Of a DNA stretch of 64,000 nucleotides, positions 4,601 to 29,767 are shown in pieces. Each line of letters opens with the position of its first letter. Position 1 is the stretch's first letter. The DNA is taken from positions 2,170,001 to 2,234,000 of the forward strand of contig NC_019964.1 in NCBI RefSeq assembly GCF_000328525.1, in the 5' to 3' direction. Under the pieces are notes generated by a model, which saw nothing but the letters and a program-made list of their open reading frames with translations, was not told the origin of the DNA and made no database searches. The translations under genes and the position numbers were made by a program. This stretch comes from Halovivax ruber XH-70. Lineage in GTDB: Archaea > Halobacteriota > Halobacteria > Halobacteriales > Natrialbaceae.

Positions 4601-4758
4601 ACGCCAGTTCCAGGCGGCCCCAGGACGGACCAGGCAACCGATGTGGCAGGCGGGCCGGTTCTCGGCCCACGATAGCGGACGTGTCTGCAAGCCGGGTGCT
4701 ATCGACCCACACAGTCAATATGTTGATTACCGTCGGGCCGAAAGGACAGAACGGACCG

Positions 4759-5916
4759 ATGAATATTGCAGATATTGCGACCCGTGACCACCTCGAGATC
4801 GACGTCGGGACGCGCATGGGGAAAGTCAGAGCGGAGTTCGAGAACGGCAACCCCAAAGGGATCATCGTCACCGACGACGGGGAGTACGAGGGCGTCATCA
4901 GTGAACGCCAGGTGCTCCAGAGCCACGTCGAGGACGACGCGAAGGTCGCTGCGTTGCTCAAGCCGAGTCGATCGGCGCCGGCCCCGACGGTCGATCGCGA
5001 CGAAGACGTGCGTGAGACCGCCCGGATCCTCATCGAGGGCAACGCGAAGATCGCCCCCGTGTTCGAAAACGGCGATCTCTGGGGCGTCATCACCGACGAC
5101 GCCGTCCTCGAGGCTGTCCTCGAGAACCTGTCGGCGATCACCGTCGCGGACGTCTACACCGCCGAGCCGATCACGGTGACCGAGGACGACGGCGTCGGGA
5201 AGGTAATCAACCAGCTTCGCGAGAACGGCATCTCCAGACTTCCCGTTCGGAACGAGAACGGCTACCTGACGGGAATGGTCACGACCCACGACATCGCCGA
5301 CTTCGTCATCCGGGAGAACGAACGGATGACCCAGGGCGACCGAGTCGGCGACAACGAGCGCATGCTCGACGTCCCGGTCTACGACATCATGAACAGCCCC
5401 GTCGAGACGATCGAGTCCGCCGCGACCGTCCAGACGGCCGTCGAGACCATGCTCGAGTTCGACTACGCGGGGCTCGTGGTGACGCCGGCGGACGACGAGC
5501 GACAGATCGACGGCGTGATCACCAAGACGGACGTCCTCCGCGCGCTCACCTACACCGAAGAAGAACAGATGGACGTCCAGATCACGAACATCTCCCAGCT
5601 GGGCTCGATGAGTCGGGCCGACGTCGTCGAAAGCATCGAGTCGGTCGTCGACAAGTACGCCAAGATGCAGGTCCAGCACGCCCACGTCCGCTTCCACGAG
5701 CACAAGGAGAAACTCCGCGGCCAGCCCCTGATTCGCTGTCAGATCCGACTCCGGACGAACAAGGGCCAGCTCGCGGGCTCCGGCGAGGGCTACGGCGCCG
5801 ACAGCGCCTTCCGCGTCGCACTGGACAAGCTCGAACGGAACGTCCTCGAGCTGAAAGGAATCACGAGCGACGAGGAGTACCGCGGCCAGCTTCTCCGGAA
5901 GTTGAACGAAATCTGA
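4759..5916 (+). CDS. Four-CBS protein with C-terminal HPF/RaiA-like ribosome hibernation domain
   Basis: A 385-residue fusion. Residues 1-265 hold four consecutive CBS motifs, recognisable by repeated GxIxxxDxL/V-type endings such as GVISERQVL, GVITDDAVL, GMVTTHDIA and GVITKTDVL. Such modules bind adenine nucleotides. Residues about 275-385 resemble HPF/YfiA/RaiA: a beta-alpha-beta core with VRFHEHKEK, a QIRLRTNKGQ strand, and the helix FRVALDKLERNVLELKG. The likely role is nucleotide-sensing control of ribosome hibernation. I chose ATG 4759 (MNIADIATRDH) because it begins the first CBS domain; the in-frame codons upstream look non-coding. Confidence 0.85.
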   Translation: MNIADIATRDHLEIDVGTRMGKVRAEFENGNPKGIIVTDDGEYEGVISERQVLQSHVEDDAKVAALLKPSRSAPAPTVDRDEDVRETARILIEGNAKIAPVFENGDLWGVITDDAVLEAVLENLSAITVADVYTAEPITVTEDDGVGKVINQLRENGISRLPVRNENGYLTGMVTTHDIADFVIRENERMTQGDRVGDNERMLDVPVYDIMNSPVETIESAATVQTAVETMLEFDYAGLVVTPADDERQIDGVITKTDVLRALTYTEEEQMDVQITNISQLGSMSRADVVESIESVVDKYAKMQVQHAHVRFHEHKEKLRGQPLIRCQIRLRTNKGQLAGSGEGYGADSAFRVALDKLERNVLELKGITSDEEYRGQLLRKLNEI

Positions 5917-5955: not shown

Positions 5956-6768
5956 TCAGAACTGGAAGTCTGACAGCACGGCCTCGATCACGACGACGTT
6001 TCCGTCCACGCGAATCGACTGTATCTCCCCGTTCTCGACGAACTCCGCTTTCGCCTCCGCTTCTGCGTCTGCCTTTTCGGCCTCGGCCGTCTCCGCGTCG
6101 GCGTAGTGGGTTCGCGCCTCCATCGTGATATCGCTGCCGTCGGCGTCCATCGCGATCCCCATCAGCTCGAACGACTCGGCGTCGTCGAACATGACACCCG
6201 ACATCGCGGCGCCAGCAACACCGGAGAGTGCCGCGTCCCACTCCTCGTCGACATCCGAGATGCGATCGACGTCCCCGTTCCGAGCGTCGATCAGGGTCTC
6301 GTAGTCAGCACTCATGACGAGCGCGTCCGAGCCGATCGCGATCGCCCCGTTGACCACTTCGTAGTCGCCGACGGTTTCGGTCTCCGCCTCGCCGGCGAGT
6401 TCCGAGACGACCGCGTCGCGATCGAACGAGCCCGTCAAAACGAGCCCCGTTCTGCCCGTCTGGAAGACGAGCATGCCGTCAATGTCATCGACAGACACGC
6501 CGAGGCTGTCGGTCAACGAGTCGAGCCCAAGTTCCGAACGCGCTTCCTCCGGCCAGGAGTCGGTTATCCGACCGAGATCCGCGTGAATGACGGTTCCGGC
6601 ATCCATATCGACGAGGAGATCGGCCGCGAGCCACTCCTCGTAGGCGGCATCCGTCTCGTCGCTCGAATCCGCGTCGTCGTCGAGCAAATCGCCGGTACAA
6701 CCCGCCACCGCAGTAGCGGTTCCCGCTGCGACAGCACCCACCAACGTCCGTCGAGTAACGTCGTCCAT
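5956..6768 (-). CDS. Tat-exported lipoprotein of unknown function
   Basis: A 270-residue protein beginning MDDVTRRTLVG with a twin-arginine motif at residues 6-7, a short hydrophobic stretch and a lipobox AVAGC with Cys24. It should therefore be exported folded and lipid-anchored outside the membrane. The mature part is acidic and alternates beta-strand-like hydrophobic segments (IDGMLVFQTGRTGLVLTG, NGAIAIGSDALVMS). It ends in an Ala/Glu-rich helix and a final strand. I do not recognise a named domain. The longer open frame upstream of 6768 lacks the Tat context and was not used. Confidence 0.8.
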   Translation of the reverse strand: MDDVTRRTLVGAVAAGTATAVAGCTGDLLDDDADSSDETDAAYEEWLAADLLVDMDAGTVIHADLGRITDSWPEEARSELGLDSLTDSLGVSVDDIDGMLVFQTGRTGLVLTGSFDRDAVVSELAGEAETETVGDYEVVNGAIAIGSDALVMSADYETLIDARNGDVDRISDVDEEWDAALSGVAGAAMSGVMFDDAESFELMGIAMDADGSDITMEARTHYADAETAEAEKADAEAEAKAEFVENGEIQSIRVDGNVVVIEAVLSDFQF

Positions 6769-23820: not shown

Positions 23821-24870
23821 ATGACAGACGTGGATCCGGACGCCGACACGGGAGCGGGTGGCGACGAAGCGCTGCCAACAACGGCCGGCACGGTCGACGA
23901 CTCCGTCCACGTCACCGAACCGAGTGAGGCGTTTCAGGCGCTGGGAAACGACGTTCGCACGGGAATTCTCCGGACGATTCGCGATCGGACCGAGGACGAA
24001 GCCAACGCGGGTCGGGTCTCGTTCTCGACACTCTTCGAGGCCGCGGACGTCGACACGACGGCCGGGTTCGCCTATCACATCGACGAACTGGTCGGACCGT
24101 ACCTCTCGAAGACGGAAGAGGGGTATGCGCTGACCGCGACCGGCAGGCGCGCCGCCCGCGCCATCGAATCCGGCACGTACACGCATCAGGTCGACCGCCA
24201 GGCGGTCGCCGTCGACGATCCGTGCCCGTTCTGTGGCGCCCAGGAACTCGCCGCCGCCGTCGACGACAACGAAGTGGCCATCACCTGTGAGGCGTGTGAG
24301 CGGTCGATCCTCCGGATGGACTTTCCGCCGGCAGGCCTCGAGGCACACGATGACGACCTCCCCGCCGCGTTCGATCGCCACCACCGACACCGCATCGCCC
24401 ACCTCAGTGACGGCGTCTGTCCCGAATGTGGCGGCCCCGTCGAGTCGCGTCTCGACGTGGTCCGGCCCGACCCTGGCGACGAGAAGGCCCGCGAGTCCGT
24501 CCCGGACCCGGTGCAGGCGTCGTTCACCTGTGCGGCGTGTGGATACGGACTCCGCTGTCCCGTCGCGCTGACGCTGCTCGATCACCCCGAACTCGTGTCG
24601 TTCTACCACGACCACGACGAGTCGATCGACCAGCGACCGATCTGGAACGTCGGGCGCGAGTGGACCGAGACGCCGCTGTCGCACGAGCCGATGGCCGTCC
24701 GTGTGGCAGTCACGCTGGACGACGAGACCGTCGAGTGCTACGTAGACGGCGAGTGTACCGTCGTCGCCACTCGACGAGTGGGTGCGGAGGTGGCCGACGC
24801 CGAAGAAAGTGGGTGCGAATCGACGACGGCAGCGACGGCGGACACAGCCCCCGAAGCCGACGTCGCATAA
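23821..24870 (+). CDS. Winged-HTH protein with zinc-ribbon domains
   Basis: A 349-residue likely regulator. Residues about 30-115 form an ArsR-like winged helix: EAFQALGNDVRTGILRTI, FSTLFEAADVDTTAGFAYHI, YALTATGRRAARAI. Then come cysteine pairs CPFC/CEAC, CPEC and CAAC, which look like two zinc ribbons in a C-terminal domain of about 200 residues. Such proteins are common in haloarchaea and their ligands are unknown. ATG 23821 begins a typical acidic tail; the longer frame upstream overlaps moaC and is not coding. Confidence 0.8.
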   Translation: MTDVDPDADTGAGGDEALPTTAGTVDDSVHVTEPSEAFQALGNDVRTGILRTIRDRTEDEANAGRVSFSTLFEAADVDTTAGFAYHIDELVGPYLSKTEEGYALTATGRRAARAIESGTYTHQVDRQAVAVDDPCPFCGAQELAAAVDDNEVAITCEACERSILRMDFPPAGLEAHDDDLPAAFDRHHRHRIAHLSDGVCPECGGPVESRLDVVRPDPGDEKARESVPDPVQASFTCAACGYGLRCPVALTLLDHPELVSFYHDHDESIDQRPIWNVGREWTETPLSHEPMAVRVAVTLDDETVECYVDGECTVVATRRVGAEVADAEESGCESTTAATADTAPEADVA

Positions 24871-24931
24871 GGAAGCCAACGTCGCGTAAACACTGCGACG
24901 AACCCGCAGCCTGGGTTCGTCGTGAGAACCG

Positions 24932-25702
24932 CTACGACGCCGTCTCCCTGAGAACCGTCTCGATTTCGTCCGTCGACCGGGTCGTCACCGTCGGCCCCGG
25001 TTCGATCGTTAGGCACTCGTAGGCGTCCGGGTCGGGCTCGTCGTCGTCCACAGCGAGCCCGTCGAGCGCCGTGGGTACGGCGTCGTCGACCGTGGTTTCG
25101 ATGTCCGCAGTCGCCGGGTCGAGTGCGGACTCGAACGTTTCTCTGATCGTCGTCGAGCCCTCGCCGATCCCGACGGCACGCCAGCCGTACGGCGTCCCGC
25201 TCGGGTCGAGTTCGAAGAGCTGACCGACCGAGCCGGCGGCGGACTGTGCCGTCGATTCCCCAGCATCATTCGGGTCGATGCCCGCGATCAGGAGCGCCGT
25301 TCCGTAGGGGCGGGTTCCCCCGGTCTGCGTAGACTCCTGGATGTGGTCTGCGAGGGACGTCGTCACCGATTCGACGGGCGCTGGCTCCCCGTACTGGAGA
25401 CGGTGGCGCTGAGCGGCGACCCGGGCGCGGTCGACGAGCTGACGCGCGTCGGCGGCGTGGCCCGCCGAAGCGATCGAGATGTGATCGTCGATTCGGTGGA
25501 GCTTCGCCACCGAGTCCGGTTCGAGCAGCGGCGAGGCGCGTCGCTTTCTGGCAGCGAGGACGACGCCGTCGGCCACGCGAACGCCGACGGCGGGTGATCC
25601 GCGTTCGACCGCCTCCCGGGCGTACTCGACCTGGTAGAGGCGACCATCCGGCGAGAAGATTGTCTGACCGCGGTCGTAGGCCTGCCTGCGAGTGTCGTCC
25701 AT
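24932..25702 (-). CDS. psmA: 20S proteasome alpha-type subunit (divergent paralogue)
   Basis: A 256-residue proteasome alpha subunit. It has the alpha-ring N-terminal signature YDRGQTIFSPDGRLYQVEYA, an RPYGTALLIAG strand and DPSGTPYGWRAVGIGEG. Compared with the canonical haloarchaeal alpha1 it is more divergent in the C-terminal half, with an acidic extension. It would form the outer gate ring of a 20S particle. It starts one base after the psmB stop, so the two are transcribed together and in the order beta then alpha. Confidence 0.9.
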   Translation of the reverse strand: MDDTRRQAYDRGQTIFSPDGRLYQVEYAREAVERGSPAVGVRVADGVVLAARKRRASPLLEPDSVAKLHRIDDHISIASAGHAADARQLVDRARVAAQRHRLQYGEPAPVESVTTSLADHIQESTQTGGTRPYGTALLIAGIDPNDAGESTAQSAAGSVGQLFELDPSGTPYGWRAVGIGEGSTTIRETFESALDPATADIETTVDDAVPTALDGLAVDDDEPDPDAYECLTIEPGPTVTTRSTDEIETVLRETAS

Positions 25703-25703
25703 C

Positions 25704-26411
25704 TCAGGCCACCTCCTCGTCCGCAGTTTCGGGAGCCGGGCTCGCTCCATCCGCTCCAGCAAGCGCCTCGCGGCCGAGGGCGTTCGTCCGGCGCTCGGAG
25801 AGGCCCTCGTCGGTGATCGTCGTGATCGTCATCCCGTCCCCGCTGGCGACGTCCCGTTCGGCGGCGGCTGCGAGGGCGTCGGCGGCAAGTGGTTGCAGGT
25901 CGGACACCGGCCGATCCGGTTCGTACGCGCCTTCGAGGGCGCCGTAGGCCAGTTGCATCCCGCTGCCGCTTGCCGCGTACGCGTCACGCATGACACCGCC
26001 ACCGCCGTCGATCCAGTAGACGGCCGACTCGTCGACCCCGCCGAGCAAGAGGCCGATCGAGCGGAACTGTCCGGTGCGGATCAGTCGCCCCGTTACCGTC
26101 GCGAGTGCGTCCGTCGGCATCGGCCGCCCGTGATCGAGTTCGTAAAGTTGGCGTTCGGTTCGCAACTGATCGACCACCGACTGCGCGTCGCTGACACCGC
26201 CGGAAAAGGCGACGGCGGCCCGCTCACCGATCGGTTCGACCTTCCGCGCCGACCGATTGGTCACGAAGCGCCCACCCAGACTCACGCGAGCGTCCGCACC
26301 GAGAACGACCCCGTCGTCGCCACCGAGAGCGACGATCGTCGTCCCCGTGGAGAATTCGTTCGCCGACTCGTGCGCTGTCCCTGCGGGACTTTCACCCGAT
26401 TGTTCGATCAT
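25704..26411 (-). CDS. psmB: 20S proteasome beta-type subunit (divergent paralogue)
   Basis: A 235-residue beta subunit with a short propeptide. Cleavage at STG|TTIVAL leaves Thr24 as the N-terminal nucleophile. The partner residues Asp40 and Lys57 are present, with one extra residue between them compared with canonical beta subunits. The GSG and RDVASGDG blocks that complete the active site are kept. It is therefore probably catalytic. I chose ATG 26411 (MIEQSGESP). The pair differs in sequence from the usual haloarchaeal PsmB and is likely a second proteasome set. Confidence 0.9.
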   Translation of the reverse strand: MIEQSGESPAGTAHESANEFSTGTTIVALGGDDGVVLGADARVSLGGRFVTNRSARKVEPIGERAAVAFSGGVSDAQSVVDQLRTERQLYELDHGRPMPTDALATVTGRLIRTGQFRSIGLLLGGVDESAVYWIDGGGGVMRDAYAASGSGMQLAYGALEGAYEPDRPVSDLQPLAADALAAAAERDVASGDGMTITTITDEGLSERRTNALGREALAGADGASPAPETADEEVA

Positions 26412-26445
26412 ACCTGCAGGAAGACTCCGCACCCGTTATATGTTA

Positions 26446-26463
26446 GCTAAAATATATTTTAGC
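26446..26463. promoter_or_regulatory. Perfect 18-bp AT-rich palindrome in a divergent promoter
   Basis: GCTAAAATATATTTTAGC at 26446-26463 is a perfect palindrome. It lies 35 bases upstream of psmB and 110 bases upstream of the hexomutase gene and contains TATA-like sequence on both strands. It could be a shared TATA/BRE element or a dimeric operator. Confidence 0.55.
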
Positions 26464-26572
26464 CGGCCGCAGGAACGAACGATCGTGGCGAGTCCTCAAG
26501 TGGCAGTAGCGGCCGACGCCCCGACGTACGAGGGTCAGTGGGTCTAAGTACGTGCTCGCGCAACCCAGTCGC

Positions 26573-28006
26573 ATGACGCTGTTCGGGACCGCGGGAATCC
26601 GCGGACCGGTCGCGACCGAGGTTACGCCCACACTCGCCCTCTCGGTCGGCCAGGCCGTCGGGCGAACGATCGACGGCACGGCCGACTCCGAAGGAAGATC
26701 CGACTCGCCGATCGTCGTGCTCGGGTACGACGGGCGGGAGACGAGCGAGCCCCTTGCCGCAGCAATGGCCGCAGGACTCGCGAGCGCCGGAGCGAGGGTT
26801 CGGCGAGTCGGCCAGGTTCCAACGCCAGCACTTGCGTCCGCGTCGCAGGGCCGATTCGGCGTGATGATCACCGCGAGCCACAATCCGCCGACCGACAACG
26901 GGATCAAGCTCTTCGACGACGGCGTCGAGTTCGATCGCGACGCCGAACGCGAGATCGAGGCCACCGTGGCGACCGCTGAGACGGCAGCCTGGGATCGGTG
27001 GGGGACGATCGAACGCGCCGAGGTCCTCTCGTCCTACCGTGAGGCCGTCTGTGCCTACGTCCGCGACCAGTTCGGCGGGCACGGCCGATCGCCTGACGCC
27101 GGGTCAGCGCAGACCGACGCACGACCGCTCGCCGGCCTGTCGATCGCGGTCGACTGTGGAAGCGGCGTCGGCGGAGAGGCCACCCCACAGGTTCTCGATC
27201 GCCTCGGTGCCGCCGTGACCGCGCTCAATGCGAACGTCGACGGCCACTTCCCGGCCAGAGAGAGCAAACCGACGCCGGAAACCCTGTCCGACCTGCGGGC
27301 GTTCCTCGCCGACGGCGACTTCGACCTCGGCCTCGCTCACGACGGGGACGCAGACCGCCTCGTCGTCTGCGGTCCGGACGGCGACGTCGTCCACGAGGAC
27401 ACGGTCCTCGCCGTCGTCGCAGCCCACTACGTCGAGGCGTCGAGCGCTGGCGACCCCGTCGTCGTGACGACACCGAACGCCTCGGCACGGATCGACGAAC
27501 TGGTGGGCGCTGCCGGCGGCCGCGTCGAGCGCGTGCACCTGGGCGCGCTCCACGAGGGGATCGCTCGCGTCCGCGCCGGGGCGGACGAGGAGACGGCCGT
27601 CGTCTTCGCGGCCGAACCCTGGAAGCACATCCATCCGGCGTTCGGCGGCTGGATCGACGGCGTCGCGAGCGCCGCCGTCGTCGCCTCGCTCGTCGCCGCG
27701 GCCGGCGACGTCGCGACCCTGCGCCAGCCCGTGACCGAGCGACCGTACCGGAAGGTGAGCGTTCCCTGTCCGGACGACGCGAAGACGAACGCGATGGCGC
27801 GCCTCGAATCGAGCCTCCCCGACGCGTTTCCCGAGGGGACGGTCGAAACGGAGTACGGCATCAGAATCGAGTTGCCCGACGCTTCGTGGGTACTCGTCAG
27901 ACCGAGCGGGACGGAGCCCTACGTGCGGCTGTACGCCGAAAGCGACGAGGTCGACGAACTCGTGGCCGTGGTCCGAGACGCGATCGAAACGGCCGTCGAA
28001 GACTGA
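26573..28006 (+). CDS. Phosphomannomutase/phosphoglucosamine mutase family enzyme
   Basis: A 477-residue alpha-D-phosphohexomutase. The catalytic serine loop ITASHNPPTDNG has Ser102; the metal loop DGDADR is at 257-262; the phosphate-binding loop is RPSGTEPYVR near the C-terminus. The sugar-specificity loop is unusual, with AEPWKHIHPAFGG where GlmM/ManB enzymes have a GExSGH-like sequence. The substrate is therefore uncertain (glucosamine-, mannose- or glucose-phosphate). I chose ATG 26573 (MTLFGTAGIRG), which is the family N-terminus. Confidence 0.88.
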   Translation: MTLFGTAGIRGPVATEVTPTLALSVGQAVGRTIDGTADSEGRSDSPIVVLGYDGRETSEPLAAAMAAGLASAGARVRRVGQVPTPALASASQGRFGVMITASHNPPTDNGIKLFDDGVEFDRDAEREIEATVATAETAAWDRWGTIERAEVLSSYREAVCAYVRDQFGGHGRSPDAGSAQTDARPLAGLSIAVDCGSGVGGEATPQVLDRLGAAVTALNANVDGHFPARESKPTPETLSDLRAFLADGDFDLGLAHDGDADRLVVCGPDGDVVHEDTVLAVVAAHYVEASSAGDPVVVTTPNASARIDELVGAAGGRVERVHLGALHEGIARVRAGADEETAVVFAAEPWKHIHPAFGGWIDGVASAAVVASLVAAAGDVATLRQPVTERPYRKVSVPCPDDAKTNAMARLESSLPDAFPEGTVETEYGIRIELPDASWVLVRPSGTEPYVRLYAESDEVDELVAVVRDAIETAVED

Positions 28007-28114
28007 GGACGACGACCGGTCACCCAGTCAATATTGATTCCTGTGGGAGAAGCCTGACATCACCGACTCACAGTCTCGAATCGTCACACCACTATCCGAC
28101 CCACACAGTCACCC

Positions 28115-28498
28115 ATGGCAACCGACTACGTCATCTCCAGTCCTGATCGCGATGCCGACAGCCCCCACAGTTCCGAGTGGCCGAAAGAACTCAGGCTCTC
28201 CTTTGAGGACGAAGAGATCAGCCTCTTGCAGGACAAGGGACACAGGCTTGGTGGTGCCTTCTATGACTTCGAGGAGTTCCGGGTCGCGGAGTGGACCGAA
28301 TCCATCGAAGCCGGTGCTGGCGAGTGGCTCCTCGCGGAACTCTCAAGCTACGAGTCACTGACTGCGATCGAGGAGACGGGCTTCGTCCGTCGCTTTATAA
28401 AGAAGATGTGTCAGAAATATAGTGAGAGGAGAATGACGCGATTGCGAAGACAGCGGCAACCACATATAGACTCCCCTCTAACATTGGAGGAAAAGTAA
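28115..28498 (+). CDS. Uncharacterised protein at the edge of an AT-rich island
   Basis: A 127-residue hydrophilic protein beginning MATDYVISSPDRDADS. The first 90 residues have normal haloarchaeal composition. The last 35 (from FIKKMCQKYSE on) are Lys/Arg-rich and encoded in AT-rich DNA. The 3' part overlaps the convergent small membrane protein gene by 104 bases. The original C-terminus may have been replaced when the island at 28.4-29.7 kb was inserted. No domain is recognised. Confidence 0.5.
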   Translation: MATDYVISSPDRDADSPHSSEWPKELRLSFEDEEISLLQDKGHRLGGAFYDFEEFRVAEWTESIEAGAGEWLLAELSSYESLTAIEETGFVRRFIKKMCQKYSERRMTRLRRQRQPHIDSPLTLEEK

Positions 28499-28676
28499 CC
28501 CACCCCATATTTACAGCCACGATCAATGAAATACATATCCAAGCCAATAGAAGTAATACCCACCCGTACAATTCGTTTGAATCCGAGACAGAGATAATAG
28601 AATGTACTATTAAATATAGCAAAGTTATAAATAACATCACATAAATAAAAATGGTTAGGTATTCTATTAAAGTCAT
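28395..28676 (-). CDS. Small three-helix membrane protein next to the halocin-like gene
   Basis: A 93-residue protein with three hydrophobic segments at about residues 4-24, 38-57 and 68-85, followed by a short polar tail. It starts 45 bases after the stop of the halocin-like gene on the same strand and has the same AT-rich composition. A role in immunity or export of the cysteine-rich product is a reasonable guess from its position but has no sequence support. Confidence 0.65.
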   Translation of the reverse strand: MTLIEYLTIFIYVMLFITLLYLIVHSIISVSDSNELYGWVLLLLAWICISLIVAVNMGWVTFPPMLEGSLYVVAAVFAIASFSSHYISDTSSL

Positions 28677-28720
28677 GGATATTAGTCACCAATATTGTTT
28701 ATTTTCTTTGAACTACTTCT

Positions 28721-29668
28721 TTACTCCTCACAAGTAGGTAACTCGTCATTGTAAAAACTCTCTGAAACCATTAATGTTTTATCATTACTTGGTTCAAAGT
28801 CAAAGCAGCTGTAATCATTATCCGATAGCCAAATAGTATCAACCCCTTCTTGGATAGTGACTGTACTACTAAAACAATGAGCAGTCGAAATACCAGAGGC
28901 AGCAGCACCAATAACGCATAGAGCACACGTTCCTTTTGTCGGGTCAACAATACAAGCGCCACATGTCCATCCTGAAAGCCCGGCTGAAATAATAGCTAAC
29001 GCCGTACAACCCCATTTTGCATCAGACCCGATTTCAACATCAACTGTACAACAATCGTCACCCCCGGGAGGTGATGGTCTAATCGGTTCGGGCGATAATG
29101 GTTCACCATCTTTCGACTCACCGGACTGTTCTTGATCGTGGAAGTCACGCTCACGTTCCTGAATCGTTCCATTATCGGATGTTATCACTGTTATCGCGTC
29201 CCATCCAAACAATCCATTACTTCGCATATTGTCACCGCTGGTAAAGCTAGATGTCTTACGGACATGATGGGCAACAGAATACTGGTCTAAATCTAAACCC
29301 ACTGTGTCGTTACCGATCCAGATAGCAACCATTTCATCGGTGTCGGCGGTCTGTTTTTCTGAAGATATTTTCTCAGCGTTCGCAACAATAAAATCGTACC
29401 CCCCACCGTCTTCCTCATAAATAACTCGCCTGGCTTCGGTTTGTGGTTTTGATATCTTCCAACCATCAGACCCAACATGGTTGACAATATTCCGAAACGT
29501 GTCATCGGCAAATGCATCTGAGATCACATTCTGACGATCACTGGCGTCAAATGTTTCGACAGTCGGCCCAGTCATATCATCCTGGGCTGTATCCGCACTA
29601 ACCAAATTCACTGACCCCATTCCAACTGATGCCGCACCGATAGCTTGGAGGATTCTTCTTCGATCCAT
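28721..29668 (-). CDS. Halocin C8-like precursor with ten-cysteine C-terminal domain
   Basis: A 315-residue protein with a Tat signal (MDRRRILQAIGAASVGMG) and a probable cleavage after VSA at residue 25. Residues 26-185 are an acidic domain without recognisable motifs. A Pro-rich linker (PLSPEPIRPSPPGGDD) follows. Residues 206-315 are hydrophobic and Gly/Ala-rich with ten cysteines, at 206, 207, 221, 236, 239, 248, 251, 265, 288 and 313. This matches the plan of halocin C8: Tat-exported precursor, N-terminal immunity part, ten-cysteine peptide released from the C-terminus. The DNA is much richer in A+T than its surroundings, which suggests transfer. The spacing of the cysteines was not compared by alignment. 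Confidence 0.7.
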   Translation of the reverse strand: MDRRRILQAIGAASVGMGSVNLVSADTAQDDMTGPTVETFDASDRQNVISDAFADDTFRNIVNHVGSDGWKISKPQTEARRVIYEEDGGGYDFIVANAEKISSEKQTADTDEMVAIWIGNDTVGLDLDQYSVAHHVRKTSSFTSGDNMRSNGLFGWDAITVITSDNGTIQERERDFHDQEQSGESKDGEPLSPEPIRPSPPGGDDCCTVDVEIGSDAKWGCTALAIISAGLSGWTCGACIVDPTKGTCALCVIGAAASGISTAHCFSSTVTIQEGVDTIWLSDNDYSCFDFEPSNDKTLMVSESFYNDELPTCEE

Positions 29669-29767
29669 AGTACAAGTTTACTCCCATTACAGTTATAGTT
29701 TTCTATAGCTTAAGGAAGAATTGATATCTGCCAAAGCATTCATATTCACCCCCAGTTAACCGAACAC

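Follow-up and report, generated by a model that had tools for sequence, protein, structure and literature searches.

The window analysed here is the whole stretch of 64,000 nucleotides of Halovivax ruber XH-70 spanning positions 2,170,001 to 2,234,000 of contig NC_019964.1 (forward strand), and coordinates are window-based unless a locus or genome handle precedes them. It carries an AT-rich island with two co-oriented genes, one for a putative secreted peptide precursor and one for a small membrane protein. The features are the following:

28115..28498, plus strand: hypothetical gene truncated by the island; its sequence is native as far as 28389 and beyond that reads into island DNA; a flanking gene outside the system
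28390..29767, strand not applicable: AT-rich inserted island of 1.38 kb, delimited by the GC profile and by homology breaks with the congener G071
28395..28676, minus strand: three-helix membrane protein of 93 aa, putative immunity protein (ORF; counterpart in G361; recurrent pairing)
28721..29668, minus strand, stop codon included: putative halocin-type precursor of 315 aa (ORF; full-length relatives; third-position excess)
28724..28867, minus strand: acidic C-terminal tail with two cysteines, residues 268-315 (net charge -11)
28868..29053, minus strand: hydrophobic core with eight cysteines, residues 206-267 (composition; cysteine pattern common to 22 relatives)
29054..29098, minus strand: Pro/Gly-rich linker PLSPEPIRPSPPGG, residues 191-205 (from the sequence; Pro/Gly-rich in many relatives)
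29369..29563, minus strand: HalI-type N-terminal domain, residues 36-100, assigned by hhalign against TIGR04449 precursors without their signals and by an HMM test
29594..29668, minus strand: putative Tat signal, residues 1-25 (RR-x-x-L with a hydrophobic stretch after it, conserved in relatives)
29692..29697, minus strand: TATA-box-like element TATAAC, 24-29 bases upstream of the ATG and centred about 26 bases before it

All the parts that the initial annotation had read from the 315-residue ORF are present, namely a Tat-like start, an acidic N-terminal part, a Pro-rich linker and a hydrophobic C-terminal part with ten cysteines. The start, MDRRRILQAIG, is of the twin-arginine type; RR-x-x-L and the hydrophobic stretch are conserved, yet the curated Tat models all score this precursor below their cut-offs. 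Residues 26-190 are acidic (net charge -20) and contain no cysteine, and the linker that follows them is the likely cleavage region. The core has a mean hydropathy of +0.89 and contains two C-x2-C pairs, while the tail, which ends in ...ELPxC in the closest relatives, may be either retained in the mature peptide or lost from it. The C-terminal 110 residues hold exactly ten cysteines, at positions 206, 207, 221, 236, 239, 248, 251, 265, 288 and 313. Full-length relatives exist (56% identity in G361, 40-42% in others), the differences from the G361 gene are in excess at third codon positions (83/90/154 by codon position), and a TATA-like element stands at the distance expected for a leaderless haloarchaeal transcript, where TATAAC would act as promoter; the ORF is therefore real, beyond what chance would give.

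The island has a GC content of 42.2%, against 67.1% in the 10 kb to its left and 60.6% in the 10 kb to its right, so that the initial annotation was right in describing it as richer in A+T than both flanks, and it lies within the lowest-GC segment of equal length in the window. It is flanked by the truncated hypothetical gene on one side and by a cytidine deaminase gene (cdd) on the other. The congener G071 is 91.6% identical at the DNA level from 24000 to 28389, at a distance of 6 bases from where the membrane ORF ends, and diverges from there; homology restarts at about 29781, within cdd, and between the two breakpoints different genes, rich in GC, fill 4.5 kb in G071. Because its homology stops at 28389, the last 35 or so codons of the 28115 ORF are island DNA, which bears out the earlier view that the island interrupts the 3' end of that gene. 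A second congener, G043, offers a near-empty site, in which the flanking phosphoglucomutase-like gene and cdd nearly touch. Two congeners are thus without the island at the corresponding place, and the differing congener DNA indicates an insertion in a variable location, which replaced the 3' end of the 28115 gene. Low GC content, insertion boundaries and these two congeners together support the acquired origin proposed for the locus.

The region that separates cdd from the phosphoglucomutase-like gene (28007-29767) is a small variable hotspot: its content differs in each congener examined (G043, G071 and G207), G207 having a different insert there, made of 1.6 kb of other genes. In G361, the 56%-identical copy of the precursor lies on the opposite side of cdd. 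For an origin from a plasmid, phage or viral contig, searches found no relative. Several related islands are flanked by direct repeats, which consist of the 3' end of an adjacent gene and a second copy of it beyond the island:

L088:3335-3630 and 5168-5458: direct repeat around the related island in G361
L091:4360-4624 and 6062-6326: direct repeat around the related island in G106
L130:3238-3290 and 4717-4769: direct repeat around the related island in G059
L092:3752-3827 and 5673-5753: direct repeat around the related island in G308

The duplicated genes include those for cytidine deaminase and prolyl-tRNA synthetase (265 bp, 98%), among others. These repeat-flanked islands showed no integrase, and no direct repeat of this type surrounds the island of the window.

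The initial annotation had called the precursor halocin C8-like, and for the C-terminal domain this assignment did not hold. The model of the halocin C8 domain (TIGR04449, halocin_C8_dom), a comparison that the initial annotation had itself suggested, matches 35 of 292 Halobacteria genomes at E values up to 0.01, with 31 above the curated 24-bit cut-off, and gives no match in the genome studied here, nor to the 315-aa precursor even at E = 10. Profile-profile comparison of the cysteine-rich domains with hhalign, also when 22 members were used, gave no match either, the score falling within the shuffled range. Both peptides have ten cysteines, but their spacing differs throughout, being 0-13-14-2-8-2-13-22-24 in the precursor and 2-7-3-7-13-7-8-8-5 in halocin C8 (the C-x2-C-x7-C-x3-C type). 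We therefore rejected a halocin C8 domain as the identity of the C terminus, which by model and profile comparison is a different one. Since the defining TIGR04449 domain is absent, the precursor is not filed under the halocin C8 family; searches of Pfam, PHROGs, NCBIfam and the PDB returned no relatives, and these libraries contain no model for its cysteine pattern. The suggestion that the peptide might form a new subclass with other cysteine spacing agrees with these results.

This second cysteine pattern is found in 22 precursors across diverse Halobacteria, referred to below as the new kind. The intact relatives all combine a Tat-like start with a hydrophobic, cysteine-rich end, and cysteine spacing varies across the family. 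Its spread is patchy, often in AT-rich islands, and some copies carry stops or frameshifts, as is usual for conflict genes. The initial annotation had set its reading against a conserved non-secreted family with another role and against a gene of normal composition kept in syntenic positions across relatives, and neither describes what was found. In the contig search, the precursor alone retrieved no relatives, and a four-sequence alignment retrieved only Natrialba hulunbeirensis and Natrialba sp. SSL1. The genome of H. ruber holds a second precursor of the new kind (L090:3371-4318; G000:C1:194885-195730), with 315 aa and 14 cysteines in its last 108 residues; 43-44 bases downstream of it lies the gene of a 133-residue four-helix protein (L090:4362-4763), and this pair (G000:C1, about 194870-196260) is also situated in a GC dip.

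The stops or frameshifts in related copies of several genomes could suggest that the island is a decaying or silent remnant of a mobile cassette, functionless in this strain. We hold this to be very unlikely, as both ORFs are intact here, the TATA-like element is correctly spaced, and third-position differences are in excess against G361 in the precursor and, with 49/34/64 by codon position, highest in the membrane gene.

What links the precursor to halocins is its N-terminal domain. A search with the family profile gave N-terminal matches in TIGR04449 precursors. One of these, L020, is of the halocin C8 type, its last 70 residues matching the halocin C8 sequence. For the comparison by hhalign, the Tat signal was cut off all sequences, and 20 N-domains of the new kind were aligned with their counterparts from TIGR04449 precursors, a set selected by the C terminus alone. 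The two sets matched with a probability of 96.2, P = 2.3e-9 and a score of 59.5, compared with 12.6 for the best of 100 column shuffles and 10.6 for the reversed alignment. Similarity remains with the signal removed, so the Tat signal alone was rejected as its source. With a profile of the new-kind N-domain alone, the majority of 30 TIGR04449 precursors were hit (best E 6e-7; E 0.0024 for L020), and 600 shuffled sequences gave no hit. These profile comparisons show homology between the N-domain and the HalI-type part that TIGR04449 precursors carry. The absence of a halocin-model match, which the initial annotation had named as an outcome that would count against it, does apply to the C terminus; it is outweighed by the N-domain homology, which is independent of the C terminus. 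The likeness to halocin C8 thus stands for the order of parts, the N-domain and the number of cysteines, and fails for C-terminal sequence and spacing.

In 125 genomes of the family, nearly all matches of an N-domain model that draws on both sets are cysteine-rich precursors of the two kinds, a result that displays what the domain is attached to and is no independent test of homology. The N-domain tree mostly splits the two kinds, with poor support within them, and so does not show frequent swapping of N-domains between peptide kinds. Matches of the N-domain profile in the PDB, mostly to designed helical repeats and with no stretch that passed, were set aside. An AlphaFold2 model of the precursor (three input sequences, mean pLDDT 34, so of low confidence) has its best-scored part in the shared N-domain, with helices at 42-53 and 56-67, a predicted helix-loop-helix. 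In halocin C8 the N-terminal part, HalI, is reported to be the immunity peptide and the C-terminal part the halocin (PMC11509114; PMC12893001), and Mei et al. 2008, to whom PMC11509114 refers, name in their title a helix-loop-helix at the N terminus of HalI as essential for immunity.

Two further observations concern this part of the precursors. A leader motif like DDGGGCxEAWxA stands ahead of the Tat signal, at residues about 20-45, in precursors of the TIGR04449 kind (L023, L031, L040) and of the new kind (L066, L071, L073); matches to its DNA pattern in 242 genomes were few, at a level close to that of the reversed control. At two loci the N-domain forms a separate gene (L121:1273-1908, then 1911-2456; L067:1291-1896, then 738-1289), and the second ORF follows after 2-3 bases and encodes about 182 residues, which include a hydrophobic stretch rich in Gly/Ala; from their sequences, these are perhaps split precursors of a third kind.

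The two C-x2-C pairs of the core would also suit a secreted redox or metal-binding protein whose N-terminal part assists folding, with no antagonism, and neither solved relatives nor curated families give a contrary verdict. We nevertheless rate this as the least probable of the alternatives, given an N-domain homologous to that of halocin precursors, a patchy distribution of AT-rich and often broken copies that is unlike that of housekeeping genes, and a cysteine spacing that is not fixed in the family.

The second gene of the island starts 44 bases downstream of the precursor, in the same orientation, and encodes three hydrophobic segments; the initial annotation had described this 93-residue three-helix protein correctly, except for a gap of 45 bases. 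Its counterpart in G361 is 34% identical. Counting small ORFs with at least two predicted helices that start no more than 150 bases downstream of a precursor, we found one in 24 of 49 precursor loci of both kinds pooled, half of the loci being without (new kind, 11/22; TIGR04449 loci, 13/27). Dinucleotide shuffles predict 0.03 such ORFs over all loci together, and among 110 control genes the number is 2. By the identical test, the halocin C8 loci L020, L021 and L027 have no small membrane ORF. The downstream proteins share little sequence across loci. G106, G230 and G202 each carry a broken precursor next to an open membrane ORF. In G202 (L146 / L065; G202:C1:1414613-1414825) the precursor is reduced to its last 72 codons, with two stops, and the membrane ORF beside this remnant is 90% identical to that of G005. 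Since substitutions in this membrane gene are spread 6/5/7 over the codon positions, with no sign of selection, an open membrane ORF beside a broken precursor is at most suggestive.

Our preferred reading, which we consider likely, is that the precursor of the island belongs to a new halocin subclass, acting like halocin C8 and with a possible membrane immunity partner. This reading is drawn from the N-domain homology, the shared architecture, the recurrent pairing with a membrane gene, and the patchy spread of AT-rich and broken copies. The precursor would be folded and then exported by the twin-arginine pathway; an extracellular protease would cut it within the Pro/Gly linker, releasing a hydrophobic, disulfide-rich C-terminal peptide of about 60 residues (110 if the acidic tail stays attached), and the freed peptide would target the membrane of competitor haloarchaea. 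The N-domain would probably neutralise or chaperone the peptide, as the HalI-type part does in halocin C8, and the three-helix membrane protein, by association, most likely provides additional self-protection. Counting against this reading are the C terminus, which matches no halocin model, the lack of a membrane ORF at C8 loci and at half of the related loci, and the G202 membrane gene with its lack of selection.

The same architecture is also compatible with a secreted peptide of halocin design that serves in signalling or kin recognition, the membrane protein being its receptor or sensor; killing by members of the new kind is itself a prediction, and the membrane proteins are diverse in sequence, as a set of receptors could be. 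That role seems unlikely to us, as the shared N-domain is otherwise found on TIGR04449 halocin-type precursors, the island has no sensor kinase or regulator, and the core is strongly hydrophobic.

For the halocin-type reading, several known systems offer comparisons. Bacillus SdpC is a small hydrophobic disulfide peptide made from a secreted precursor, with the membrane immunity protein SdpI encoded next to it; we draw an analogy only and claim no homology, as the export route differs and SdpC has far fewer cysteines. The halocin C8 precursor ProC8 (HalI plus HalC8) shares with ours a Tat-like start, a homologous N-domain, a hydrophobic C-terminal peptide with ten cysteines, and a similar length, 283 aa (PMC11509114) against 315 aa. 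It differs in a C-terminal domain unrelated by sequence and spaced otherwise in its cysteines, in the absence of the acidic tail of about 48 residues, and in the neighbouring three-helix membrane protein, which the test for small downstream ORFs did not find at halocin C8-type loci. Other TIGR04449 precursors (for example L017, L018, L031, L039 and L040) likewise share the N-domain and the order of parts and differ in the pattern of the cysteine-rich domain. As for maturation, halocin H4 and HapP (HFX_0892) of Haloferax mediterranei are secreted as precursors and become active through an extracellular serine protease; protease cleavage is known for HalH4, and release of a C-terminal fragment for HalC8 (PMC12893001). 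By analogy, H4 and HapP are a likely model for the precursor studied here; PMC12893001 makes no mention of a cysteine-rich peptide for either.

We propose the family with the second cysteine pattern as a new halocin subclass, and it may have been listed earlier by the 2019 survey of archaeal antimicrobial peptides. In that survey, Makarova et al. reportedly enlarged the halocin C8 family and named candidate analogous families, which may already include this one. To our knowledge, few halocins are known at the sequence level. A more tentative idea, to which we give somewhat less than even chances, is that the archaeocins of haloarchaea form a polymorphic system. A single HalI-type self-protection domain, equipped with a Tat signal, would be joined to at least two unrelated cysteine-rich peptides (the L067 and L121 precursors perhaps being a split third kind), often in small AT-rich cassettes with a small membrane immunity protein. 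If so, the N-domain would be a general handle on unknown archaeal toxins. A membrane gene beside both kinds of peptide makes it testable whether immunity comes from the precursor, from the partner protein or from both. Searches with the halocin C8 domain miss the group with the new pattern; the shared N-domain gives access to further archaeal antimicrobials, and points to a wider, largely undescribed class of them.
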